Shown: positions 4,802 to 18,800 of the stretch, piece after piece
Layout of the letters: each line of letters starts with the position of its first letter
How positions within the stretch are numbered: the stretch's first letter is position 1
Virus record (IMG/VR): IMGVR_UViG_3300042731_008324
Coordinates: 1 to 20,013 of that record
Direction: 5' to 3' (one strand)
Origin: a virus
Length of the DNA: 20,013 bases
The notes under the pieces: generated by a model
Databases searched by the model: none
Told to the model about the DNA's origin: nothing
The model's input: the letters and a program-made list of their open reading frames with translations, nothing else
Made by a program: the position numbers and the translations under genes

Positions 4802-5860
4802 CTAGCGGGTGATCCCGTACAGGGCACGCATGAGGCGCGCTGCACGGACCGTGAAGTTGCCGCCGAAGAGGATCTGCCCGGCCACGACGGTGCTGTCCTG
4901 AGCCACCTTGAAGCCGGTCCAGCCGAACTGGTACTTCGGCGAGGACGAGAAGTAGAGGTTCAGGAAGGCGTTGTCACCCTCCGCACCGGGGTTGAGCCAC
5001 CAGAAGGTCTCGGCCGAGGCCGAGTAGTCACCGATGTCCGCGTCGTTGACGCCGTCGGCTCCGGGGGCGTACTGGTCCTCGATGATGGTCGCCTGCTTGA
5101 ACTTCAGGCCGGGATAGCCGATCGTCGGCTCGAGCTGGTCGATCCGCTGCTGCGGCTGGAAGTTCTCGTTGATGAACCCCATGCAGCGGTTCGTGGTCAC
5201 TCCGATGACCGGGTGCTCGTCGCCGATGACGCAGGACTGGTAGGTGTGCTCCAGCGTCCGGTAGTTGATGGCGCCGTCCACGTTGGGGTCCGAGATCAGA
5301 CCGGTCGGGGAGTTGAGCGCCGGGGAGACGTCCGCACGGGCTTGCGCCCCGTAGGACGTGAAGGTCGAACCACCCCAGGTCGTGTTCGTCCCGTCGGTGA
5401 GCGCCTCCTCGAGCCCGTTGAGCGCCGCGGATCGGTCATCGCCCGCGATGTTCTGTCCATGGTGGTAGAGCGCGATTGCGAGGATGGCCGAGAGCGTGAG
5501 CGCCGCGTCTCCGAGGTGTGCGTTGACGAGGCTGAGGACCGCCTGCGGCCCTCGGACGATCACCTCGACGTCCTCGGTGTACTCGGTGACGTTCACCTCG
5601 GCGAACTTGGGATCGAAGAGCAGGCCCGCCATGGTCTGGTGCTTCGTGATGTCGAAGGTGGCGCCCTTCTGGTAGAACCCACCCTTCATCGGCTTGAAGA
5701 GGAAGTTCTCCTGGATCTGCGGGCCACCCGCCCAGACCTTGTAGCGGTTGCGCTTCAGGAACGCCAGAACCGGGGAGTTCTTGAAGAAGTTGTCGACGAG
5801 ACCCGGCATGATCTTCTTCGTGGTGAGGGTGTTGATCTCGTCGAGGTTGGGATCGGCCAA
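4802..5860 (-). CDS. Major capsid protein (HK97-fold expected)
   Basis: A 352-residue protein following the scaffold-like gene, the classic order for a major head protein. The N-terminus (LTTKKIMPGLVDNFFKNSPV, residues 12-31) and the following aromatic beta segment with GFYQKGATFD (about 61-70) resemble the N-arm and E-loop regions of phage major capsid proteins. The VIRG-QAVLSLVNAHLGDAALTLSA helix near 100-125 suits the spine helix. The C-terminus contains FNLYFSSSPKYQFGW-like strands and ends in VRAARLMRALYGITR. No processing protease is encoded nearby and no cleavage delta-domain is obvious, so assembly probably relies on the separate scaffold. The start is TTG at 5860, 5 bases after a perfect GGAGG; the 28-base gap upstream has no better start. 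Confidence 0.85.
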   Translation of the reverse strand: MADPNLDEINTLTTKKIMPGLVDNFFKNSPVLAFLKRNRYKVWAGGPQIQENFLFKPMKGGFYQKGATFDITKHQTMAGLLFDPKFAEVNVTEYTEDVEVIVRGPQAVLSLVNAHLGDAALTLSAILAIALYHHGQNIAGDDRSAALNGLEEALTDGTNTTWGGSTFTSYGAQARADVSPALNSPTGLISDPNVDGAINYRTLEHTYQSCVIGDEHPVIGVTTNRCMGFINENFQPQQRIDQLEPTIGYPGLKFKQATIIEDQYAPGADGVNDADIGDYSASAETFWWLNPGAEGDNAFLNLYFSSSPKYQFGWTGFKVAQDSTVVAGQILFGGNFTVRAARLMRALYGITR

Positions 5861-7701: not shown

Positions 7702-9723
7702 TCAGGACTCGGTGACCGTTGTCCGGTCCCCCTTCTGCTCGATCTGAGGGCTCTCCTGGCCGGTGGCCTTCCTCCCCGCTGGGGAGACGGTCTGCCCGAT
7801 CCCGAGCTGCTGCTGGGCGATGAGGCGCTCGGTGACCGTGACCGGCTCGCGGACGATCATCGGGGGCGGAGGCGGCGGGAGGGCCGCGCCCGTCTGGGGA
7901 TCGGTCTGGACTGGCGGTGGCTTGTAGTCGGGATCCGGAAGGGGAACCGCGGGCGGGCGGCCGACGTTCGGGACCTCCAGCCTCTCCAGCAGGGTCCAGA
8001 AGTCGATGTAGCCCTGACGGGAGAGCTGGAGGTACTTCATCTGCTCTTCCTGGGAATGCATCGCCAGCATCGAGTTGGGTTTGATGTAGAAGGCGAAGAG
8101 CTTGTGGAAGTGCTGGGCACGCTCATCCCGCGAGCGCCCCCGGTCCAGCTCCGGAACGTAGCCCTCGTCCCCCTCCTTCATGGCCGGGACGAGATTCCCG
8201 GGGTCGAAGTCGAAGTCCTGGAGCTGCTGCCCCGCATCTCCGAGGATGAGGACCCGCTTCGCCTGGGAGTAATACTGGAAGATGTTGACCTTCACCATCT
8301 CCGCCAGCTCGCGGAGGAAGACCTCCAGCAGGCGGCCCTCGAGACGGAGCCCCGGGGTGAGCGCCTGGTAGTACTTCTCGATCGTGTCGGCCGAGGGCAT
8401 CTGCCGGAGCGTCATGAGCTGCTGGAGGTTCGCCATCTCGGTCATGTCGTCGAACTGCTGCAAGAGGAGCGAAGCGAACTCGAAGGACCAGGGCGGGAGA
8501 TTGGGCACCTCAGCCAGCTTCACCCCCTGGCCTAGGGTGGGATTCACCTTCAGCTTGAAGTTCGGCACGCGGGGATCGAAGCGCTTGTAGGTTCCCTCGG
8601 GGATCGCCTTGGAGTCGAAGATGAGACCCTGGTTCACGATCCGGGAGAAGGCGGTCAGGATGTTGTTGACGACCCCGTTGATCCCGTCCTGCATCGGCTT
8701 CGTGTCGTTGATGAGGGGGAGCCCAAGGAAGTTCCAGGGCCAGGGGTCCAGCTTCATGCGGACGACCGGGAACATCCCATGCCAGAAGGGGTTGGGGCCG
8801 TCGAAGGTCACCCGCTTCTCGGTCGCCACGATGAGCCGCCCCCGCGGGTAGAGCTTGCCCCCGGGCGCGACCTTGTAGGCATAGTCCGTCCCCGGGACCC
8901 CCATGAGGACGGGCCCGGTGTTCTCGTTCCTCTGCCCATCCTTCAGCCACACCCGCACGACCCCCACCTCCGGGAAGATCCCGGCCGGGCCCTTCGTGGT
9001 GCGGAGCCCGTCGAGGGTCGAGACGGGCGTTGTGATCTTCATGGCCCGCCTGAAGCGTGTGAAGGCATTGGACCAGATGGAGCCCTCGGAGGGGGTGAAC
9101 GCTTCAGCCGGCATGTCGGGGTAGAACGATTGGAGGACTCCCGGGGAGTACGCCTCACGCAGAATGACCCCGCGCCAGTCCTGAAGCGTGTCCGTCCGAG
9201 AGGCCCGGATGGGCAGGGTGTCCCGGGGATCGCGGGCCATGAGGCGCGTGTCCCCGTCGTTGTAGAAGGGGTCGAACTCCACGATCAGGTCACCCGTCCC
9301 CAGCGTGAGGGCGTACTTCGCGCACTCGGCGAGACGGAGATCCACGAACGCGTTGAGCCACCAGACGAGCGTCAGGTTATTCAGGAGGTGCGCCTGGGTG
9401 TCGAAGCGGGTGTTCTTCGTCTTGTACCCGAAGAGCGGCCGGATGTCGGTGAGCGCCGCGACGTGCGTCCGGATGGCCTTCTTCGTCCGGTTGACGACCA
9501 CGTTGGGGAGGTACTGGGGACGATTCGCGGCGAGCTGCTGGCCGAGGACGTAGTCCTGGTTGTCGTCCATCCCCTCGTAGACGGGGTCGGATGCGTTGAC
9601 GAGGTCGCCCTCGCGGACTGCCTCCCTGATCCAACCGAGGATGCGGTTGTCTCGAGCAGGGAAGAAGCCCTCCTCTCCAACGGAGCGCCTCATGAGGCCA
9701 TCGACGAGGGGATCACGGGCCAT
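7702..9723 (-). CDS. Portal protein
   Basis: A 673-residue protein with hallmarks of phage portals. There is an N-terminal helical region; then VVNRTKKAIRTHVAALTDIRP (near 75-95), the conserved stretch before the wing; then repeated Trp-rich helices, a central beta/helix part with PVVRMKLDPWPWNFLGLPL and a KPMQDGINGVVNNI helix (the typical plQd-iN motif), and a crown region with long helices (RLEGRLLEVFLRELAEMVKV). The C-terminal 80 residues are Pro- and Gln-rich and probably disordered. It would form the dodecameric head vertex through which the terminase pumps DNA. The size is in the upper normal range. The ATG at 9723 is 3 bases after the zinc-ribbon gene stop. Confidence 0.92.
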   Translation of the reverse strand: MARDPLVDGLMRRSVGEEGFFPARDNRILGWIREAVREGDLVNASDPVYEGMDDNQDYVLGQQLAANRPQYLPNVVVNRTKKAIRTHVAALTDIRPLFGYKTKNTRFDTQAHLLNNLTLVWWLNAFVDLRLAECAKYALTLGTGDLIVEFDPFYNDGDTRLMARDPRDTLPIRASRTDTLQDWRGVILREAYSPGVLQSFYPDMPAEAFTPSEGSIWSNAFTRFRRAMKITTPVSTLDGLRTTKGPAGIFPEVGVVRVWLKDGQRNENTGPVLMGVPGTDYAYKVAPGGKLYPRGRLIVATEKRVTFDGPNPFWHGMFPVVRMKLDPWPWNFLGLPLINDTKPMQDGINGVVNNILTAFSRIVNQGLIFDSKAIPEGTYKRFDPRVPNFKLKVNPTLGQGVKLAEVPNLPPWSFEFASLLLQQFDDMTEMANLQQLMTLRQMPSADTIEKYYQALTPGLRLEGRLLEVFLRELAEMVKVNIFQYYSQAKRVLILGDAGQQLQDFDFDPGNLVPAMKEGDEGYVPELDRGRSRDERAQHFHKLFAFYIKPNSMLAMHSQEEQMKYLQLSRQGYIDFWTLLERLEVPNVGRPPAVPLPDPDYKPPPVQTDPQTGAALPPPPPPMIVREPVTVTERLIAQQQLGIGQTVSPAGRKATGQESPQIEQKGDRTTVTES

Positions 9724-9726
9724 GAC

Positions 9727-10185
9727 TCAGTCTCCTCGAATCCTGCGGACTGCTGGGTGGGTATGCCGACCGCGGGCGTCCTGCGAGAATCTGCCCCGGA
9801 TGTTCTTTCGCCTCGGGACTGGGACCTGGGGGGAGGGGCCGAAGGTGTTCACGTCGTAGTTGGAGCTGTCCTGGTGGAAGGCCCGGAAGCGGACAGGGGC
9901 AGTCCCCTCGCTCTGGTAGCGGCGCTCCGACTCCCGCTCGATCCGGTCCGCCGCCTGGATCGAGTCCACGCGCCGGCCCTCGTAGTCGAAGGCGGGGAAG
10001 AGCGGGCGGGGACGGATGGAGCCGTGGGGACAGAACGGCCACATGGGACGGCGGATCACGACGCCGCAGCGCTCGCACGTCGTACTGGGGTCGGTCGCCT
10101 CCAAGAGCACGAGAGAGCGCTCCCCGACGAGGAGGAAGTAGACGGGCCTCAACCTGTACCGTTTCCGCTCAGCCCGCGATGTCAA
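9727..10185 (-). CDS. Zinc-ribbon protein of unknown function
   Basis: A 152-residue protein with a single treble-clef or zinc-ribbon-like cluster, Cys37-x2-Cys40, then Cys52-x-His54. After it comes a charged, helical region (RRVDSIQAADRIERESERRY near 70-90) and a basic, Arg-rich C-terminus that is probably disordered. The start is TTG at 10185: a GGAGGAG lies 7 bases before it inside the end of the upstream gene, giving a 17-base overlap. An in-frame TTG 11 codons further in is possible but less well placed. Genes of this kind often sit just before phage portals, and a role in DNA or portal contact is conceivable but unproven. Confidence 0.7.
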   Translation of the reverse strand: MTSRAERKRYRLRPVYFLLVGERSLVLLEATDPSTTCERCGVVIRRPMWPFCPHGSIRPRPLFPAFDYEGRRVDSIQAADRIERESERRYQSEGTAPVRFRAFHQDSSNYDVNTFGPSPQVPVPRRKNIRGRFSQDARGRHTHPAVRRIRGD

Positions 10186-10579
10186 AGAACTGCTCCTCCA
10201 TGCCGCGGACGATGGCCCTGGTGGCCTCCTCCACGGTGATCCGGTTCCGCGTCGCGTAGTTCTTCACCTGCTCGAGCTGGCGCGTGGTGAAGTCCACGCG
10301 GATCCTCCCTATCTTCAGGTCGGCCAGCTCCCGGACCTTGGTGAGAAGGTCGCGGCCGGAGGCGAGCTGGCCCCCGGGGAGGATCTTCTCCAGGCCCTCC
10401 CGGGAGCGCGTATCCACGACCACCACCCTGTCCATCGGGGCCACCTTCGAGAAGCGCTCCAGTTGGGCCACCATCAGATCCTCGGCCGAGGTCCCCTGCC
10501 CACCCCGGCCTGCCAGAGAGTCTGCATGACGAAGGTAGGTCTCGTAAAGGTCGTCGGGAATCCGCAGCGTGACTTTCAC
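10169..10579 (-). CDS. Ribbon-helix-helix-like protein; candidate small terminase subunit
   Basis: A 136-residue protein. The N-terminus (VKVTLRIPDDLYETYLRHAD) has the strand-turn-helix look of ribbon-helix-helix DNA-binding domains. A second, similar segment lies near residues 93-130 (GRIRVDFTTRQLEQVKNYATRN, then a helix with TVEEATRAIVRGMEE). Two such elements suggest either two DNA-binding folds or a DNA-binding plus oligomerisation fold. The start is GTG at 10579 in a GTGA overlap with the preceding stop, supported by a GAGGGAG tract. No conventional small terminase is visible, and this protein lies between the terminase nuclease and portal genes, a usual terS position, so it is a candidate. 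That role is inference; it could equally be a transcriptional regulator. Confidence 0.65.
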   Translation of the reverse strand: MKVTLRIPDDLYETYLRHADSLAGRGGQGTSAEDLMVAQLERFSKVAPMDRVVVVDTRSREGLEKILPGGQLASGRDLLTKVRELADLKIGRIRVDFTTRQLEQVKNYATRNRITVEEATRAIVRGMEEQFFDIAG

Positions 10580-10818: not shown

Positions 10819-10934
10819 CAGAGCACCGCCGCCCAGAGAATGAGCCCCGCGACACCGCAGAAGAGGATGAAGCACACCCAGGCGTCCCAGGTGGCAAGAA
10901 CGAAGAAAAAGGCCTCCTCCAGCCAGCGCAGCAT
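10818..10934 (-). CDS. Small membrane peptide, 38 residues
   Basis: A 38-codon frame coupled by TGATG overlaps at both ends, to the terminase nuclease upstream and the 80-residue gene downstream. The peptide has a short amphipathic N-terminus (MLRWLEEAFFFVLATWDAW) and a hydrophobic helix at about 17-38 that reaches the C-terminus. It is too short for a classical holin but might assist lysis or be a membrane anchor. There is no homology evidence; the hydrophobic, Trp-rich composition and exact stop/start coupling are what support it. Confidence 0.6.
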   Translation of the reverse strand: MLRWLEEAFFFVLATWDAWVCFILFCGVAGLILWAAVL

Positions 10935-11863
10935 CAGTACCACCCTCCCTGAGGAGCGTAGGGGTCGGGGCGCCCGGAAACCTCGTGCTCCGAGATGTCC
11001 GAGTTCTGGAAGTCCCGCCTCGTTCCGGTCTCAGACTGCATGGCCTCGCGACGGACCTGCTCCTCAGCCAGGCGGCGCCGCTGCTCGGAGAGCGGCTCAG
11101 ACTCCAGGAGGCGCGTCTGGGTCGCCACCTCGACCGAGATTGCGCCCGCCATGAGGCAGTCGTCGTGCGCCCCCGAGGACGCTTCGGCCTCCCAGGCCGC
11201 ACCCGTGGAGACGAAGTCCCGCATCTCCTCCATCGTGAAGGGGGAGTTGATCCGGTAGTCGGGGAGGCCGGTGCGGGGGTCGACCGCGGTCACGGCGCGG
11301 AAGTACCGGGCCAGCATCCGGGCCCGGGTCCGGGCGGTGGTGTACCACCCGTAGGCCTTCGTGTACCGCGAGCGCGGGTCACGTGCGTCCTCGTGCTGCC
11401 AGATGTAGAGATTGTCGTAGCCGCAGTGGTGCTGCAGCTCGGACTGGGTGGCGAGCCCCTGGCCGTTGCACTCGACCGCGACCAGGGCCCCAAGGTCGTC
11501 GTCGTCATGGTAGAAGCGGCCGATCGGGTCGATGAAGTAGGCCAGCTCGATGGGGTCGACGGAGTCCGAGACGAACTGGGCGACCTGCTCCTCGGGCTCG
11601 GTGAGGGTCCCCACCCGGAGGACGTCGATGACGGAGCGGTCGAGGCCCAGCCCCGAGGAGACGTCCACCGAGATCACGTAGGTCCGCCCCTTCCGGCGCA
11701 CCTCCCACAGCAGCAGCTTGTCCATGAGGCTCTCGAGGTAGTCCGGGTGGTCCTCCTCGGCCGCGGTGTGCCAGCGCTCGGGGGGGATCAGGTTGAATCC
11801 GTACCCCGGCGGGATCTCGATCGGGACGGGCTGCGGGACCAGATGCTGCTGTGGGAGGGGCAT
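10934..11863 (-). CDS. terL (nuclease part): Large terminase subunit, nuclease half (separate gene)
   Basis: A 309-residue protein matching the C-terminal RNase H-fold nuclease of phage large terminases, the domain that cuts concatemeric DNA at initiation and termination of packaging. After a linker of about 50 residues comes LLLWE, then motif I in YVISVDVSSGLGLD (Asp67, with Asp75 following), motif II in VAVECNGQG (Glu131), a GYDNLYIW strand (148-155), the KAYGWYTTARTRARML helix (169-184), and motif III GAHDDCLMAG with Asp234/Asp235. All metal-binding acidic positions are present, so the domain should be active. There is no Walker ATPase region in this gene; that half is encoded at 15603-16847. 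The C-terminal 60 residues are charged and probably disordered. The ATG follows the holin stop by 3 bases. Confidence 0.88.
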   Translation of the reverse strand: MPLPQQHLVPQPVPIEIPPGYGFNLIPPERWHTAAEEDHPDYLESLMDKLLLWEVRRKGRTYVISVDVSSGLGLDRSVIDVLRVGTLTEPEEQVAQFVSDSVDPIELAYFIDPIGRFYHDDDDLGALVAVECNGQGLATQSELQHHCGYDNLYIWQHEDARDPRSRYTKAYGWYTTARTRARMLARYFRAVTAVDPRTGLPDYRINSPFTMEEMRDFVSTGAAWEAEASSGAHDDCLMAGAISVEVATQTRLLESEPLSEQRRRLAEEQVRREAMQSETGTRRDFQNSDISEHEVSGRPDPYAPQGGWY

Positions 11864-11866
11864 CAG

Positions 11867-12118
11867 CTACTTCTTCTTCCTCGGGCGGTGGACCTTCCAG
11901 AGGTTGAAGAGGAAGCGGACGACGAAGACGCCTGCCGTGGCGAGGACGGCGGGGAGGCCGAGGTCCTGAAGCTCGTGCGCCTCGTCGATCATGGGGAAGA
12001 TCGCGTCGACACCGGCCACGAGGGCGGCCAGGCCGACAGCGGTCAGGACGCCGAGCCAGGCCTCACCGACCCCCTGGGCGCCCTTCGCGACGCCCTTGCG
12101 AACCGAGTACTGAGCCAT
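11867..12118 (-). CDS. Possible internally initiated short form of the holin-like protein
   Basis: Within the holin-like gene an ATG at 12118 (Met98) is preceded by a strong Shine-Dalgarno sequence, 6 bases away. In-frame initiation here would give an 83-residue protein with two hydrophobic segments and a Lys/Arg tail, itself holin-sized. Paired long and short holin products from one gene are known in other phages, such as lambda S105/S107, though with much closer starts. It is listed as possible: the frame is certain, but use of the start is inferred from the ribosome site alone. Confidence 0.4.
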   Translation of the reverse strand: MAQYSVRKGVAKGAQGVGEAWLGVLTAVGLAALVAGVDAIFPMIDEAHELQDLGLPAVLATAGVFVVRFLFNLWKVHRPRKKK

Positions 12119-12409
12119 GTCTTTCTCCTCTCCCCGAATGACACGGAGCCACCCGGTGATGAAGACGTAACCGAACGGGACCACGGTGACGGCTACGGTC
12201 CAGCCCGGCAGGAACGGCGGGACGAAGAAGTGCAGGAGCAGCACGCCAAGGAAGACCCCTCCGGCGATCCTCTTCCAGGTCGTGTCGAAGAAGGCCCACG
12301 TCGTCTGGGAGTAGGTGGGCTTCTTGAGGATGATCGCGACCAGCTCCACGATCCCGAAGACGACGAGGAGGGAGAGCCAGATTGTTGCCCACAGCGGGTC
12401 TATGGTCAT
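11867..12409 (-). CDS. Holin-like multi-pass membrane protein
   Basis: A 180-residue protein with about five hydrophobic segments: residues 8-28, 48-64, 71-90, 117-137 and 152-170, ending in a Lys/Arg cluster (KVHRPRKKK). This, and its place in a cluster with a peptidoglycan peptidase, fits a lysis-pore role (holin). The N-terminal part, up to about 95, and the C-terminal part each look like a small holin, suggesting a fusion or overlapping products. The ATG at 12409 is 2 bases after the preceding TGA, and a GGAG sits 8 bases upstream; a TTG two codons earlier is a poorer start. The protein could instead be an anti-holin or other membrane protein, since holins lack diagnostic motifs. Confidence 0.7.
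   Translation of the reverse strand: MTIDPLWATIWLSLLVVFGIVELVAIILKKPTYSQTTWAFFDTTWKRIAGGVFLGVLLLHFFVPPFLPGWTVAVTVVPFGYVFITGWLRVIRGEEKDMAQYSVRKGVAKGAQGVGEAWLGVLTAVGLAALVAGVDAIFPMIDEAHELQDLGLPAVLATAGVFVVRFLFNLWKVHRPRKKK
12125..12135 (-). promoter_or_regulatory. Internal ribosome binding site within the holin-like gene
   Basis: The minus strand reads GGGGAGAGGAG, with the AGGAG core at 12129-12125, 6 bases before the in-frame ATG at 12118. Such a well-placed site inside a coding region is unlikely by chance, although Gly/Glu codons (GEE) in a GC-rich gene can create it. Confidence 0.5.
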
Positions 12410-12411
12410 GG

Positions 12412-14118
12412 TCAAGGCTCCACGTATCCGACGCAGCTTCTGAAGAGGCTACCCGCGGCCTCAGCGCAGACGTCGCCATTGCCGGCGGCCATGGCCTTGG
12501 CCCACTGGCCCTCGTAAATCTTGCCCTGGGCGTCCCGCTTCCAGGACGGGTGATTCTCGAACTGCCCCTGTCCGCAGACGCGGACGTTGCGCGGGTGGTT
12601 CTGGTTGACGCACTGGATGTCGAGGACCAAGGCCTCCTCGCGCCCGAACTCCGCCCCGGCCGCGGTGATGCAGTACCAGGGGTCGAAGCTCATATGGGTG
12701 TCGGACTCGTAGGTGAAGGTCGCACAGGGCTGGCCGAGGAACTGGGACTCGCAGGCCGAGCGCTGGGGGTGCCCCGGAGGGGCGACCGGACCGTCTCGGC
12801 GGCCCTCAGCGCACCGCGCTGGCCAGAGCCCGTCCTGGCAGTAGTAAAGCGTGCCGTCAGGGAGGTCCGGCCAGCGGTCGCAGACCACGCCGAAGCCGAA
12901 GTTCTTCCTTCCCTCTCGCTGCGGGAGGACGCTGCACGTGCGGCCAGCCACCTGCATCGCTGCAGCGGTCGGGGTGTTGAAGTCGCATCCGGTGGGCTCC
13001 AGGGGCTCGCAGCCTCCCGACATGAGCTGGAGGGTCGTGCCCATCTGCTCCATCGTCTGGGTGTGGCGCCAGTACGCCATCTCGGTCCGGTTGGCCTTCG
13101 CCTGGCAGAAGCGGCGGTATAGCTCGGTTGGGGCCAGCGCCGGCGAGGGGTTGTACTCGTTGATGATGCTGGGCTTGCCGTAGACCGGGGCCGGGATGGG
13201 GTGCGCCTGGTGCCGGGTGACGTAGTCCACCGGGCCCTCCTCGGCCTCAGGCTTGGACGCATTCGTGGCGAAGAGGTGGACGGGGGTGCCAAGGGCATTC
13301 TCCCAATGCCGAACGCGCTCCCTCATCGAGAAGGTCCACTCGGTACCGTAGGGACCCAGGCCCACCTCGTTTCCGTCCTGCCAGATGACGCAGGGGAGAG
13401 GGCCGAGCACCGTGACGACCTGCCGAAGCCAGAGGTCCTCGAAGGAGCCGGGCCGTATGGTCGTGCGCCCCACGTGAAGGTTCATCGAGTAGGACTGGAC
13501 GTTCCACTCCGCCCGCATGGGGTTGGGGATGTCCTGCTGCTTGGCCCACCAGCGATCCACGAGGTCGAACTCGACATAGCCCCCCTCGAGACAGGTGGCT
13601 TCGGCCCAGGCTTGGACGCGGTCCCAGAAAAGCGGGTTGAAGGAGGCGAGGTCGGCCTTGCCCCCGACGCGGGAGTACGCCCCACCGACGTCGGCCCACT
13701 CGGGCTCAGCGGTGTGATCGCCGAAGAAGGGGCCGAGACGAGCGTGGAAGAAGACCGTCCTCCCCCCGACCTTGCCGTAGACGTACTCCCGCCAGTCGGG
13801 ATGGATCGCGATGGGCCAGCCGGTGTGCTGCTCCTGGAGGACGACCTCGCCCGTGTCGACGCTCGCCATCTCGATCATCAGGGGGAGCGGCTGGGGGACC
13901 TGCCCCGGCTCCAGAGGCCGGCAGCAGGGGATGGCCCCCAGGAAGTCCACCCGGGTCTCCGCGTCGAGGCGGCAGAGCTGGGACGGGTCGTCCGTACAGC
14001 GGCGGAGCGTCATCGAGGGGTCCGGGGTCGGCTCAGGTGTCGGGGTCGGCTCAGGGTCCGGATCCCCGTTGCAGGCTGGGAGGACGACGAGGAGGGCCGC
14101 GGCGAGAAGCAGACGCAT
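12412..14118 (-). CDS. Lipoprotein with TIM-barrel glycoside-hydrolase-like domain
   Basis: A 568-residue exported protein. Residues 1-16 form a lipoprotein signal with lipobox LPAC (Cys16 lipidated), followed by a Pro/Thr/Glu/Asp spacer (about 17-35) that would hold the domain off the membrane. The middle, about residues 60-350, has the alternating strand/helix pattern of a clan GH-A barrel: NPLFWDRVQAWAEATC helix, YVEFDLVDRWW strand, CVIWQDGNEVG with a candidate acid/base in Asn250-Glu251, and KPSIINEYNPS with a candidate nucleophile Glu321. The C-terminal 200 residues are Cys-rich and may be a separate binding domain. Substrate cannot be told. The ATG is 1 base after the subtilase TGA. Proteins like this are usual in bacterial genomes, not phage late operons. 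Confidence 0.75.
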   Translation of the reverse strand: MRLLLAAALLVVLPACNGDPDPEPTPTPEPTPDPSMTLRRCTDDPSQLCRLDAETRVDFLGAIPCCRPLEPGQVPQPLPLMIEMASVDTGEVVLQEQHTGWPIAIHPDWREYVYGKVGGRTVFFHARLGPFFGDHTAEPEWADVGGAYSRVGGKADLASFNPLFWDRVQAWAEATCLEGGYVEFDLVDRWWAKQQDIPNPMRAEWNVQSYSMNLHVGRTTIRPGSFEDLWLRQVVTVLGPLPCVIWQDGNEVGLGPYGTEWTFSMRERVRHWENALGTPVHLFATNASKPEAEEGPVDYVTRHQAHPIPAPVYGKPSIINEYNPSPALAPTELYRRFCQAKANRTEMAYWRHTQTMEQMGTTLQLMSGGCEPLEPTGCDFNTPTAAAMQVAGRTCSVLPQREGRKNFGFGVVCDRWPDLPDGTLYYCQDGLWPARCAEGRRDGPVAPPGHPQRSACESQFLGQPCATFTYESDTHMSFDPWYCITAAGAEFGREEALVLDIQCVNQNHPRNVRVCGQGQFENHPSWKRDAQGKIYEGQWAKAMAAGNGDVCAEAAGSLFRSCVGYVEP

Positions 14119-14119
14119 C

Positions 14120-15343
14120 TCACTCCCCCCTGGCGTAGACGAGCCGGTTCGGTGTTTCCCCGGTGAGCCCCGAGAGGACGTCCTTGGTCGAGAGACGGAA
14201 GACCTCCTCGGCGACCCCGGCCGGGGTGAGGACAGGGTTCCGGGCCAGCGTCAGGGCGGCGACCCCAGCGACGTGGGGGGATGCCATGGAGGTCCCGTCC
14301 TTGCGCCCCCCGATGGAGTCGATCCCGGTGCCCGGGGCGCACAGATCCACGACGTCGCCGTAGTTCGAGAAGTAGGCCTCCTCGTCCCCACGGGTGGAGG
14401 CACAGGTCGTGAGAGCCTGGACGACGCGGGCCGGGGAGTGCCCCTTCGCGTCCTCGTCCGAGTTCCCGGCCGCGGCAACGAACGTGGCCCCGGCGGCGAT
14501 GACCTTGCAGACGGCGTCGTCGATGGCCGGGGAGGCGGAGCCGCCCCAGCTCGCGTTGACGACCTTGCCGACGGCCCCGGGGCCGGGGTCGTGCTCAGCG
14601 ATCCACCCGAGCGAGCGGATGGCGTCGGTGTCGGTCCCCGAACCGCTCTTGTTCAGGAAGCGGACGGAGTGGATCGTGCAGCCGCGGCAGACGCCGAAAC
14701 TAGACCCGGCCGCGGTGCCGGCGACGTGGGTCCCATGCCCTGTCCCCTGAGGGTCGTCCGCGCAGCCCCCGAAGAGGATGGTCGAGAAGCAGTCCGAGGA
14801 GAGCCGGTCTGCGAACTCGGGGTTGGGGATGACCCCGGTGTCTTGGATGTAGAGATGAACCCCGGCACCGAGCGCGCCCGGCTCGAAGAAGCCGTCAAGA
14901 GGACGGACGCGCTGGTCGATCCGATCGAGGCCCCAGGACTTCACGTCCTGCGTCCGGACCGTCCCCTCCTCCTGGACGTACTGGACCCGGGGATCGGCGA
15001 CCACGGACTCGACGCTGCTCAGGTCGGCCGAGAAGCCACCGACGAGGTCGAGCGTCTGGATGTTGGAGGCCGTGCCGAAGCCCGCGGCCGCGAACTGCAG
15101 GGCCTGGGCCGGGTCAGCCCCCGCGGCGGCGAGGATACCGCGGCGTTCCTCGAGAACCTCGGGCTTCAGGACCACGATATAGCGCCCCGTCGGATCCTCC
15201 ACCTTCACGAGACCCTGGAGCTGAGGGGGGTTGTCACAGTCGTAGGCCTCGGGAGGAGGGACGGGGCAGAAAGGCGGACACGGGAGCTGGTCACAGCTCA
15301 GGAGCGGTAGGACCAGCAGTGCGGCCGAGATCGTCTTCTTCAC
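14120..15343 (-). CDS. Lipoprotein subtilisin-like serine protease (S8)
   Basis: A 407-residue subtilase with an export signal and lipobox (LPLLSC, Cys17). Residues about 52-130 form an I9-type inhibitory prodomain (YIVVLKPE near 55, GFSADLS near 103, then DPRVQYVQEEGTV). The catalytic triad is complete: Asp168 in IQDTG, His203 in GHGTHVAG, Ser352 in GTSMASPHVAG, with the oxyanion Asn294 in AAGNSDED. Extra cysteines (185, 194, 219, 222) could form disulphides, consistent with folding outside the cytoplasm. The fold is proteinase K-like. The start is GTG at 15343, overlapping the M15 stop as TAGTG. It is not a capsid maturation protease by sequence, since those lie in the cytoplasm and belong to other families. 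It could process surface proteins of the host. Confidence 0.9.
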   Translation of the reverse strand: MKKTISAALLVLPLLSCDQLPCPPFCPVPPPEAYDCDNPPQLQGLVKVEDPTGRYIVVLKPEVLEERRGILAAAGADPAQALQFAAAGFGTASNIQTLDLVGGFSADLSSVESVVADPRVQYVQEEGTVRTQDVKSWGLDRIDQRVRPLDGFFEPGALGAGVHLYIQDTGVIPNPEFADRLSSDCFSTILFGGCADDPQGTGHGTHVAGTAAGSSFGVCRGCTIHSVRFLNKSGSGTDTDAIRSLGWIAEHDPGPGAVGKVVNASWGGSASPAIDDAVCKVIAAGATFVAAAGNSDEDAKGHSPARVVQALTTCASTRGDEEAYFSNYGDVVDLCAPGTGIDSIGGRKDGTSMASPHVAGVAALTLARNPVLTPAGVAEEVFRLSTKDVLSGLTGETPNRLVYARGE

Positions 15344-15603
15344 TAGGTCACCTCCGGCTGAAGGTGGTCGTGGTCATGCTCACGAACCAGTTTGAGCCCG
15401 TGGTGGCGGGCTGCACGCTGAGCGACGCGAAGGGGGACGGGGGTGTCGTAGACCACGTCCCATGCGAGCCAGTCTTGGTGCCAGGAGTCCGGATGGCCGC
15501 CGACGAGGGCGTTGCGCTTTGCGGTGCGGCCCCACGAGGTCACGGAGCCCCCCGTCGCGGCGCAGAAGGCCTTGACCTTGGAGCAGCCCTCCTCCGGAGT
15601 CAT
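15343..15603 (-). CDS. Mini M15-type peptidase, probable endolysin
   Basis: An 86-residue single-domain zinc peptidase of the D-Ala-D-Ala / L-Ala-D-Glu carboxypeptidase type (family M15). The H-x6-D zinc motif is in SWHQDWLAWDVVYD (His42, Asp49), and the second zinc/catalytic segment is REHDHDHLQ near residues 74-82. The start (RTAKRNALVGGHPDSWH) matches the N-terminal face of the fold. It has no signal sequence and no cell-wall-binding domain, so release would depend on the holin two genes downstream. The usual Gly of the HxxGxAxD motif is Trp here. The size is below most members but viable for this compact fold. The ATG overlaps the TerL ATPase stop as TGATG. Confidence 0.8.
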   Translation of the reverse strand: MTPEEGCSKVKAFCAATGGSVTSWGRTAKRNALVGGHPDSWHQDWLAWDVVYDTPVPLRVAQRAARHHGLKLVREHDHDHLQPEVT

Positions 15604-16847
15604 CACCCCCGCACCACCTGCCTCATCGGCACCACCTCGAGCTGAGCCAGCAGCGGGCGCGCCTGGTCCCGGACCCGCTGCTGCACCTTGGTCGAGAAGA
15701 CCGAGCGCCCCGAGTGCTGGAAGCACTCGTCGTCGGTTACCGAGCCGTACTCCTCGACGAAGGTCTTGAGGTCGTCCTCGGATTCGTACTCCTCCCGGGT
15801 CCTCTCGTACCAGTAGAGCTGGTCCCGGGAGAGCGAGCACACCCGCCCGAGATAGGCCTGGGAGGTCTCCTCGCAGTGGCGCGCGTGGGAGAGCGTCGTC
15901 GAAGCAGGAGACCAGTCAGGCGGGGCGGGGAGGGAGTACCGCGGCTCCACGTACCAGGGGATGAAGATGTTGACCTTGAAGCGGGTGTTCCCGCCCCGCG
16001 ACGCCTTCCAGTGCGAGTGCCACCAGTTGTGCCGCCCCTTCGCCGTGGACTCGAAGAAGACGAAGGACGTGGGGAGACGGTGGATGGTCGGGAGGAGCGA
16101 GCCGCGGATCTGAGCGATCTGGACGACCTCCCAGGTCGACAGCTCCGAGAGGTGGCAGAAGCCGAGCGTCTTCCCACGGCCGAGCTGACCACGCTGGCCC
16201 TCGGTCCCGCGGGTCGACTTCCCCGAGCCTACCCAGACGTGGCACTCCGTGTCGAACTTCATCTCCTTGTTCTTGACATGCTCCTCGACCTTGGGGGCGA
16301 GCCACCAGGGGAGGTTCTCGATGATCCGCTCGTAGATGTCGAACATGAAGGCGGAGGTCTCTGGGACATCAGCGGCGATGAGGGCGAAGAGGTGCTCCTC
16401 AGTGGTCATACGATAGGCCGCGACCGCCTCGGCGAAGGTCGATCCACCGACCTGGCGAGCCCCCTTCAGGAGATTGCACAGGATCCCGTCGTGGATCTCG
16501 CCGTCGCGCACTGCCAGCTCGGCCTCCGCGAGGCGGCCAAGGATGAAGGCCTGGGTGTCCAGGAAGGGATTCATCCGCCCGAGGCGGGCCCCGCCCACGT
16601 TGATCATCGCGTAACGCGTGGCCCAATACTCGAAGGAGGACTGCACGAGAAGGCGCTCGTTCACCACGAAGCGAGCCTCGGCCTCCTCCAGGGGGCGCGG
16701 CGCCTTCCCCTTCACGGCGTGGACACCCGCAAGGCGGTGGACCATCTCCTCCACCTCCGCGACGGAGTGCGGCTGGACCGTGAAGCCAGGATGGAAGGCG
16801 TCCTCCAGCTTCCGCAGGCGCTCGTCGCAGACGTCGGGATGGAACAT
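15603..16847 (-). CDS. terL (ATPase part): Large terminase subunit, ATPase half (separate gene)
   Basis: A 414-residue protein matching the packaging-motor ATPase of phage large terminases. After an N-terminal helical part comes an adenine-binding-like region (TQAFILGR), then a deviant Walker A LKGARQVGGST (127-137). Walker B with catalytic Glu is in LGFCHLSELSTW (228-239; Glu235), and the coupling motif FFESTAKG is at 264-271. The protein ends shortly after DDECFQHSGRSVFS (372-385), the segment that normally leads into the nuclease domain. None of the nuclease motifs follows; they occur in the gene at 10934-11863. It therefore looks like a complete ATPase domain cut exactly at the interdomain linker. 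The ATG overlaps the FN3 gene stop as TGATG; longer alternative starts would overlap that gene further. Confidence 0.9.
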   Translation of the reverse strand: MFHPDVCDERLRKLEDAFHPGFTVQPHSVAEVEEMVHRLAGVHAVKGKAPRPLEEAEARFVVNERLLVQSSFEYWATRYAMINVGGARLGRMNPFLDTQAFILGRLAEAELAVRDGEIHDGILCNLLKGARQVGGSTFAEAVAAYRMTTEEHLFALIAADVPETSAFMFDIYERIIENLPWWLAPKVEEHVKNKEMKFDTECHVWVGSGKSTRGTEGQRGQLGRGKTLGFCHLSELSTWEVVQIAQIRGSLLPTIHRLPTSFVFFESTAKGRHNWWHSHWKASRGGNTRFKVNIFIPWYVEPRYSLPAPPDWSPASTTLSHARHCEETSQAYLGRVCSLSRDQLYWYERTREEYESEDDLKTFVEEYGSVTDDECFQHSGRSVFSTKVQQRVRDQARPLLAQLEVVPMRQVVRG

Positions 16848-17207: not shown

Positions 17208-18800
17208 TCACTGCACCGGGATGCACATCCCGGCGGGACAACTGTAGTGGATCGTCACGTTTCCCGGGCCCGCGGGCGCCCCACTCTCGTACTCGAACGC
17301 GCCCGCGTCCCAACCGGAGCCCTGGGGTCGCGAAACGCCATCGTAGTCGACCTCGATGCTCTCGCCGTAGGTGGAGAAGTAGGTATCATAGATCGAGCTT
17401 TCGGAGCCGATGTCGATCGCGGGGCTCGTGTCTTCGAGATTGAAATCGTGGTTTGCCTGGTCCACGAAGTCGGGGTCCTCTAGGTAGTTCTCCGAGCCCC
17501 CCTCGAAGTTTGCTTGGAGGTCGGCGGTGTCGGTGTAGGTATCCGCAGTGCTGCCGCCCCACGCGATGTCCAGACTCCCGCCGCCCTGATAGAAGATGGT
17601 CCGGTCCAAGTCGGAGACGTCGGCAACGGCCGAGGGCTCGATGTAGACGTCATCATAGATAGACCCTGCGAGATCCACCGCGATGTTGTCGTAGATCACG
17701 AGGTCGAAGTTGTCCCGCCAAGCCGCCCGGAGGAAGTGGTCGCAGTTCTCAATCGTGTTGTTCACGATGTGGATCGGGGCGCCGCCCTTGTCGAACTGGA
17801 TCGCAGCGGAGGTGCAGTCCCGAATCACGTTGCCAAGGATGTAGGCCGGGCCCCAAGAGCCAGAACCGTTCGCCGCAGCCTCGATCCGGATCCCCTTGGT
17901 GTTGTTGCGGATCAGGTTGAAGATGACCCAGATGTCCACCGCCTGGTCGTCAAGGCCATTGGATCCGATAAGGACCGCGGTTCCGTCCGATCCTCCCGCT
18001 GGGACGTGGCCCCACATCTCGTTCTGCGAGATCACGATGTGCTCGGAGGTCTTGAAGTCGACGGCGTTCTCTATGTTCTCGTGGATGTTGTTGCCTCCGA
18101 TGTAGACCCACTGCGGGCCGGGTTCGGCGCAGTTATGGCAGAACTGGATGCCGTCACCGGAGCACATCTCGATCTCGTTCTCAAGGATCCAGAGGTAGTC
18201 GGTGGTGGACCCGGCGTAGATCCCGTGCCGGTCGTCCGGAACGGCGTAGTTCCCGCAGTCGTGGATGTGATTGTCGTAGTAAACGACGTAGTCGGCGTAG
18301 GTGTTATTGCCGTTCCTGTTGGGGTGGGGCCCGATGTCATTGTAGCGGACCGAGATGTGATCCCCTCCGCTATTCGTCGCCGTAGCGTGGAGGTTGAAGT
18401 TCTCGAAGATGAAGTAGCTCCCGTAGAGGGTCACGCGGTCGTTGCTGGCCTGCTGGAGCACCACCTGGGAGGCAGGGGACGTCGGACCCCGAAGGTAGAC
18501 GGGGGAACCCGAGGTGCCATTGCCTGTAAACGTCGGATCGGATGGGAGGTTGTAGGGACCGCCACGCACCTGGCAAATCTCGCCCGCCGAGAATGTCGTC
18601 GGAATCGTGCAGCGCGGCGAGCCGGGGGAGCCGTTGCCCGAATCGGAGCAGCTCCCCGAGTTGTCCACCCAGTAGTCGTAGGTGTTGTCGTCGGTCGTCT
18701 CGTCAATGCCGAAGGGTGGTTCTGGGATGCCGATGGGCGGGTCGTAGGCTAGAGCAGGGACGGCCGCGAGAACGAAGACTAGCAGAAGTAGGCTCCTCAT
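17208..18800 (-). CDS. Exported right-handed beta-helix protein with choice-of-anchor-Q-like C-terminus
   Basis: A 530-residue protein with a Sec signal peptide (residues 1-18, ending ALA). The N-terminal part has the YWVDNSGSCSDSGNGSPGSP opening seen in parallel beta-helix proteins, then runs of short turns with Asn-rich, I/V-rich strands (ILENEIEMCSGDGIQFC, VIFNLIRNNTKGIRIEAA, ILGNVIRDCTSAAIQFDK, IVNNTIENCDHFL) that repeat every 20-30 residues, the signature of pectate-lyase-like and NosD-like beta helices. Near 475-515 it has SPAIDIGS and GVSRPQGSGWDAGAFEY, typical of a choice-of-anchor Q domain in bacterial secreted proteins. Polysaccharide binding or depolymerase activity is plausible but no catalytic residues can be assigned. 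The start overlaps the preceding stop as ATGA. It differs from phage tail spikes in having a signal peptide. Confidence 0.85.
   Translation of the reverse strand: MRSLLLLVFVLAAVPALAYDPPIGIPEPPFGIDETTDDNTYDYWVDNSGSCSDSGNGSPGSPRCTIPTTFSAGEICQVRGGPYNLPSDPTFTGNGTSGSPVYLRGPTSPASQVVLQQASNDRVTLYGSYFIFENFNLHATATNSGGDHISVRYNDIGPHPNRNGNNTYADYVVYYDNHIHDCGNYAVPDDRHGIYAGSTTDYLWILENEIEMCSGDGIQFCHNCAEPGPQWVYIGGNNIHENIENAVDFKTSEHIVISQNEMWGHVPAGGSDGTAVLIGSNGLDDQAVDIWVIFNLIRNNTKGIRIEAAANGSGSWGPAYILGNVIRDCTSAAIQFDKGGAPIHIVNNTIENCDHFLRAAWRDNFDLVIYDNIAVDLAGSIYDDVYIEPSAVADVSDLDRTIFYQGGGSLDIAWGGSTADTYTDTADLQANFEGGSENYLEDPDFVDQANHDFNLEDTSPAIDIGSESSIYDTYFSTYGESIEVDYDGVSRPQGSGWDAGAFEYESGAPAGPGNVTIHYSCPAGMCIPVQ

Follow-up and report, generated by a model that had tools for sequence, protein, structure and literature searches.

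The large terminase (TerL) of phage T4, gp17, is a single polypeptide combining an ATPase and a nuclease domain. Divided coding sequences for this enzyme are also on record. In herpesviruses, the coding sequence (UL15/UL89) lies in two parts several kilobases apart with unrelated genes between them; the UL15 exons are spliced together across these genes (PMC3079670, PMC6466031), and in duck enteritis virus the 3.5-kb intron holds UL16 and UL17 (PMC3079670). Among phages, the Jug phage terL is interrupted by group I introns, with its pieces rejoined by splicing (PMC12363816), Enterococcus phage vB_EfS_SE has two terL coding sequences (CDS) with a homing endonuclease (PMC11510935), and the two large-terminase domains of Parabacteroides phage phiPDS1 are reported in two CDS, with a different codon table or a faulty assembly weighed by its authors as possible causes (PMC10773633). 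The phage precedents are isolated and have mostly been explained by introns or homing endonucleases, or are suspected of being assembly errors; the open-licence literature yielded such isolated cases only, and no description of a lineage in which a two-gene terminase is intact and conserved. Here we describe such a lineage, starting from the IMG/VR record IMGVR_UViG_3300042731_008324, a fragment of an uncultivated virus of just 20,013 bases (this whole record is hereinafter the window), which encodes its large terminase in two open reading frames (ORFs) 3739 bp apart, counted between the stop of the ATPase gene and the start of the nuclease gene.

The two genes are complementary halves of a T4 gp17-like large terminase (Table 1). 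The first-pass annotation, which proposed this division from the sequence, placed both genes correctly and left their strand unstated; read on the plus strand they are nonsense, whereas the minus strand yields two proteins. The ATPase half bears the features then ascribed to it, namely a deviant Walker A (K128-GA-R131-Q132-VG134-G-S136-T137), a Walker B-type HLSE235 and the coupling motif ESTAKG (266-271), and terminates 30 residues past the FQ..G..VF motif, i.e., inside the linker, with no nuclease domain following it. K128, Q132, E235 and E266 are invariant across 50 aligned ATPase sequences; the profile alignment places the conserved P-loop lysine, K128, before the loop, in contrast to the lysine within the GKT of T4 gp17, whose position is substituted here. 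The nuclease half in turn has no ATPase domain and displays an RNase H fold with the predicted D-E-D triad: D67, E131, D234 and D235 are invariant in 48 aligned nuclease sequences, and D67/E131/D235 correspond by motif order to T4 D401/E458/D542.

Profiles built from relatives and run against the PDB retrieved T4 gp17 entries only for the ATPase half (E 1e-5, aligned to the gp17 ATPase domain), and for the nuclease half the RB49 gp17 nuclease first (E 1.4e-18), along with T4 gp17 (E 4e-13). The AlphaFold2 models of the two halves (predicted local distance difference test scores of 92.0 and 85.7, respectively) have as their top structural matches the T4 gp17 ATPase (2o0j, E 1.8e-12) and the T4/RB49 gp17 nuclease (3cpe, E 2.2e-10). 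Profile, fold and catalytic residues hence agree for both domains, and each half is recovered as a T4 gp17-like terminase fold. In PHROGs, the ATPase half matches a terminase family (E 2e-5) and the nuclease half an unnamed family (E 2e-9) plus a terminase family (E 4e-4); in Pfam, the former has no credible match, its only hits being sub-threshold ones to unrelated domains without an assigned function, and the latter has none at all. Against three relatives, nonsynonymous divergence (dN, 0.11-0.36) is well under synonymous divergence (dS, 0.82-1.10) in both genes; hence, both halves are maintained by purifying selection.

Each half, as well as alignments, served as a query against IMG/VR to collect loci holding both domains (designated by L-numbers below). 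After the removal of near-duplicates, the set comprised 54 distinct members, including the window, with the domains on separate ORFs, 35 with fused domains and four fused outgroup phages; every split relative is a metagenome contig. Split genes are thus the common state of a large uncultivated lineage, and they are mostly adjacent or overlapping: in 28 of the 54, the nuclease gene begins inside or right at the end of the ATPase gene, mostly with an overlap of 4 nt (ATGA, GTGA, TTGA) or 1 nt, a gap of 26-450 bp separates the two in 21, and only five have larger gaps (L022, 726 bp; L005, 768 bp; L060, 1044 bp; L001, 3606 bp; the window, 3739 bp), the small gaps being approximate as the junction start codons were picked by rule. 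With 54 split members and the reported two-CDS terL of phiPDS1, the earlier suggestion that the arrangement lacks a precedent is not supported. An apparently different split in L152, with a break within the ATPase domain, is likely a sequencing frameshift and was left out of the count. The records tested hold one ATPase locus and one full nuclease locus each, and neither the 20-kb record nor the long, formally incomplete split relatives, all of which may be fragments, yielded a second terminase. One of these, L016 (71 kb), shows a near-identical, though not exact, overlap between its ends, which suggests that it is nearly complete. As a separate observation, four relatives (L019, L127, L133 and L135; e.g., L019:5692-7866) with ATPases otherwise of the split type have the Walker A loop interrupted by intein-like inserts of some 255 residues (GRQLGA^C...SHN^ST) that include GGMLDGEGSGG, a LAGLIDADG-like segment; the one insert tested had no Pfam match at E 0.01.

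The wide separation of the halves in the window is a late insertion into an older junction, shared only by the window and a single close relative. The latter is represented by the near-identical contigs L001 and L002 from two other metagenomes, in which the halves are likewise separated, with a gap of 3606 bp; the same ATPase-nuclease arrangement can thus be found in metagenomes beyond that of the window. They hold three of the four window cargo genes at 62-65% identity (cargo genes 1 and 4 at 62% in L001, the subtilase at 65% in L001/L002), whereas the third gene is unrelated, being a 438-aa protein in L001. In contrast, in the closest relative without cargo, L003 (75-78% identity), the halves overlap by 8 nt, and its junction (...CAGGTGGTGCGGGGGTGA / CCCCTCCCACAG) is alike that of the window (...CAGGTGGCGCGTGGCTAG / CTCCCTCCCGAA) on both sides of the insert. 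Hence, the uninterrupted but matching junction of L003, taken with the partly shared and partly differing cargo of L001/L002, points to the insertion being recent relative to the split. In the window, transcription runs from high to low coordinates in the order ATPase, peptidase-like protein, subtilase, lipoprotein, membrane protein, nuclease, small gene, portal and major head protein. The genes from the ATPase to the nuclease all point in the same direction and are almost gapless: the ATG of the first cargo gene overlaps the ATPase stop (TGATG) and 3 nt separate the stop of the fourth from the nuclease ATG. The whole run of genes, both halves with the cargo, therefore looks like a single operon; a simple consensus scan of 10.8-17.3 kb, which constitutes weak evidence, found no promoter-like site. 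The label of lysis cassette previously given to the insert is partly apt, in that the insert includes a weak match to M15 peptidases along with a multi-pass membrane protein, but it does not account for the subtilase and the lipoprotein. The subtilase, which is likewise under purifying selection, has, by eye, an N-terminal signal and a lipobox-like LLSC; it is possibly a surface-acting protease encoded by the phage.

Other relatives hold different genes at the same place; hence, the terminase junction acts as a cargo slot. Tad2-like (anti-Thoeris) genes lie between the halves in L011 (L011:1923-2144) and L023 (L023:4466-4750; Pfam E 1e-24 and 3e-23, respectively), the gap of L056 holds an HNH nuclease gene and that of L005 encodes a weakly phospholipase A2-like protein. 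By eye, gap proteins of L009, L071, L078 and L062 are zinc-ribbon-like, and those of L059 and L083 are HExxH-like. The gap proteins of L016, L026, L055 and L057 have a twin-arginine translocation (Tat) signal and resemble the N-terminus of the head protein, with a shorter relative in L060. Small proteins with a Tat-like RR signal, mostly with a segment like the N-terminus of the major head protein, were also noted more generally (L016:11362-11613, L026:3689-3991, L055:7160-7465, L057, L060 and L002:586-831), several of them sitting between the terminase halves.

In terms of evolutionary history, a maximum-likelihood tree of both domains (94 rows), with a bootstrap tree of 36 rows, places the main fused clade of 34 members within the split lineages with a support of 100/100, while L050/L051 are fused separately from this clade. 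The outgroups, namely the phages Tunturi_1, CRP-7 and douglas 12A4 and the genome ctuNt529, are all fused. The tree needs three changes between the split and fused states (four if L152 is counted), and a single split clade is rejected by the approximately unbiased test (p = 0.0098; this group was named after the first tree had been seen). Since the outgroups are fused and the main fused clade is nested in the split lineages, the simplest history is one fission followed by at least two re-fusions, with the direction of these changes being our inference. The separate ATPase and nuclease trees broadly agree. Some discordance in distances is seen for L016, whose nuclease half is 75-78% identical to those of L026, L023 and L087 while the ATPase halves are only 57-59% identical, as might result from one half having been exchanged at the junction; given the broad agreement of the trees, we make no claim for the exchange of halves between lineages.

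A different history, with no bearing on function, would have the fused terL as ancestral throughout and the linker broken independently about eight times at the same place. One point change near a flexible linker can yield overlapping stop and start codons, so that such events are easily pictured; however, about eight changes on the tree would be needed against three, and the fused clade of 34 lies deep within the split lineages with full support, making this course rather improbable. It is far less probable still that the halves are joined after all, be it by a split intron, trans-splicing, a split intein or recoding. The fragments of the Jug phage terL, rejoined via group I introns (PMC12363816), the herpesvirus UL15 exons flanking other genes (PMC3079670) and the inteins inside the ATPases of the four relatives mentioned above make such a route worth weighing. 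Herpesviruses form one protein by mRNA splicing and have UL16 and UL17 on the opposite strand, and the division of the terminases of the Jug phage and vB_EfS_SE, which are also in several pieces with other genes between them, is attributed to group I introns or a homing endonuclease. Neither element was found at the window junction: no Rfam intron reached gathering scores in the window and seven relatives or was credible at E<=5 within 10.5-17.3 kb, and none of the four window cargo genes has a homing endonuclease match in Pfam or PHROGs. The ends of the halves at the junction show, by eye, neither an intein-like Cys start nor a His-Asn end, bearing out the first-pass annotation on the lack of an intron or intein. 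Furthermore, the halves have ordinary start and stop codons, the overlapping or abutting genes of 28 relatives leave no space for an intron, and a programmed frameshift is not possible across 3.7 kb. The phiPDS1 case, with the two CDS 92 bp apart in its record (MN929097), is a single report and has no cargo between the halves. The fragmentary nature of the 20-kb record of an uncultivated virus also brings up an assembly chimera or a frame-broken pseudogene, to which we assign a negligible probability. The former is ruled out by the same gene order in L001/L002 from two other metagenomes and the even G+C (0.64-0.70) across the region, the latter by the purifying selection on both halves and the subtilase and the conserved catalytic residues, and both are countered by the split state of dozens of further contigs.

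In this lineage, a T4 gp17-like terminase is divided at the interdomain linker into two proteins. As to function, we think it quite likely, taken as a whole, that the overlapping or abutting start and stop codons of about half of the members allow the halves to be co-made by translational coupling; that the ATPase half and the RNase H-fold nuclease half come together on the portal to form a motor of two subunits; and that a non-covalent domain interface replaces the peptide hinge. On the branch of the window, the ~3.7-kb cassette of peptidase-like protein, subtilase, lipoprotein and membrane protein was later inserted between the reading frames, which would be tolerated because the halves need not stay contiguous. 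The two proteins presumably bind each other, and a two-subunit motor is favored because the two genes are mostly still neighbors and re-fused versions are seen. Also in its favor, the ATPase and nuclease distances largely rise together across members. Thus, of the functional two-subunit motor in the first-pass annotation, the intact, conserved and complementary halves are now established, while the motor itself is only probable. The linker of the main fused clade, 65-90 residues long, variable and by eye Pro/Ala-rich, is a tether and not a rigid arm, and the link between the domains is hence not rigid. Certain points weigh against this explanation. Splitting T4 gp17 at the linker retains the ATPase and nuclease activities but abolishes translocation (PMC3012670, PMC9958956); in the natural split, therefore, either the non-covalent interface must suffice or the motor is decoupled. 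The pairwise distances of the ATPase and nuclease are correlated slightly less tightly in the split (r = 0.82) than in the fused members (r = 0.88); the branches of the outgroups are very long, making the direction of change less certain than the number of changes; and the phage collection gave no isolate close to the split lineage, the best matches being below 30% identity. In a decoupled motor, the ATPase ring alone would translocate DNA, whereas the nuclease would make the headful cuts as a separate protein, recruited when packaging begins and ends and present in a different copy number. Phi29 gp16, whose nuclease domain is no more than vestigial, is able to package DNA, independent genes permit different stoichiometries, the linker of fused members is long and variable, and, among split members with a portal, nuclease distances correlate better with those of the portal (0.92) than with those of the ATPase (0.82). 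However, the T4 nuclease domain bears a translocation groove and is required for translocation (PMC3012670), and the two genes are mostly adjacent and in order, with fused forms having arisen anew, which argues for a shared complex; we thus consider decoupling unlikely. A more inclusive proposition, which we hold to be moderately likely, is a widespread hinge-less motor, working either by force transfer through the interface or by ATPase-only translocation with a separate cutter, with the junction as a landing site for cargo and at least two later re-fusions.

Table 1. Genes of the window in and around the divided large terminase.
Feature	Coordinates	Strand	Basis
Major head protein	4802..5860	-	PHROG 9953, E 3e-17; conserved in relatives
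Portal protein	7702..9723	-	PHROG 156, E 5e-8; order kept in relatives
Small ribbon-helix-helix-like protein, downstream of nuclease	10169..10579	-	Conserved in many relatives (36-73% identity); label from a weak Pfam match to a longer ORF
Terminase nuclease half (TerL-C), 309 aa	10934..11863	-	Motifs (D67, E131, D234/D235), profiles, predicted fold
Cargo gene 4: multi-pass membrane protein, possible holin, 182 aa	11867..12415	-	No confident family match
Cargo gene 3: putative lipoprotein of unknown function, 568 aa	12412..14118	-	No Pfam match
Cargo gene 2: subtilase (Peptidase_S8), 407 aa	14120..15343	-	Pfam S8, E 3.9e-34
Cargo gene 1: M15-type peptidase-like protein, 86 aa	15343..15603	-	Pfam Peptidase_M15_3, E 1e-3 (below cut-off); PHROG endolysin, E 2e-3
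Terminase ATPase half (TerL-N), 414 aa	15603..16847	-	Conserved residues, T4 gp17 ATPase matches, predicted fold

The terminase genes are grouped with those for the portal and the major head protein, as expected for TerL. Upstream of the ATPase gene, at 17208-18800, the window further encodes a right-handed beta-helix protein with a signal peptide (Pfam Beta_helix, E 1.6e-8). Among named phages, the TerL of the Tunturiibacter phage Tunturi_1 (PP887698) has the best E-value for the ATPase (28% over 300 aa) and resembles the window in both domains and in the order terL, small gene, portal and head protein; it differs in being fused, at 723 aa, and is very distant. Nearer are fused uncultivated relatives (e.g., L159, L136 and L145, with contigs of up to 70 kb) of the same terminase family, at ~40% identity, which unlike the window have a single polypeptide. 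A scan of GTDB genomes recovered one relative with a split terminase, L180 (QHVT01000038.1), on a contig binned with an Acidobacteria gp7 metagenome-assembled genome; along with the Tunturiibacter outgroup phages, this hints at hosts among the Acidobacteriota, though a single relative does not suffice for naming one.

A split terminase can easily be overlooked or annotated for one half only: Pfam offers only sub-threshold matches for the ATPase of the window and none for the nuclease. TerL-dependent pipelines may thus count too few members of this lineage. Packaging models based on T4 treat the hinge between the ATPase and the nuclease as part of the transmission. Against this backdrop, a lineage from which the hinge has been removed, alongside relatives in which it has been restored, amounts to a ready-made experiment on the need for covalent coupling, and the same natural experiment bears on the coordination of the motor and the cutter and on their copy numbers.
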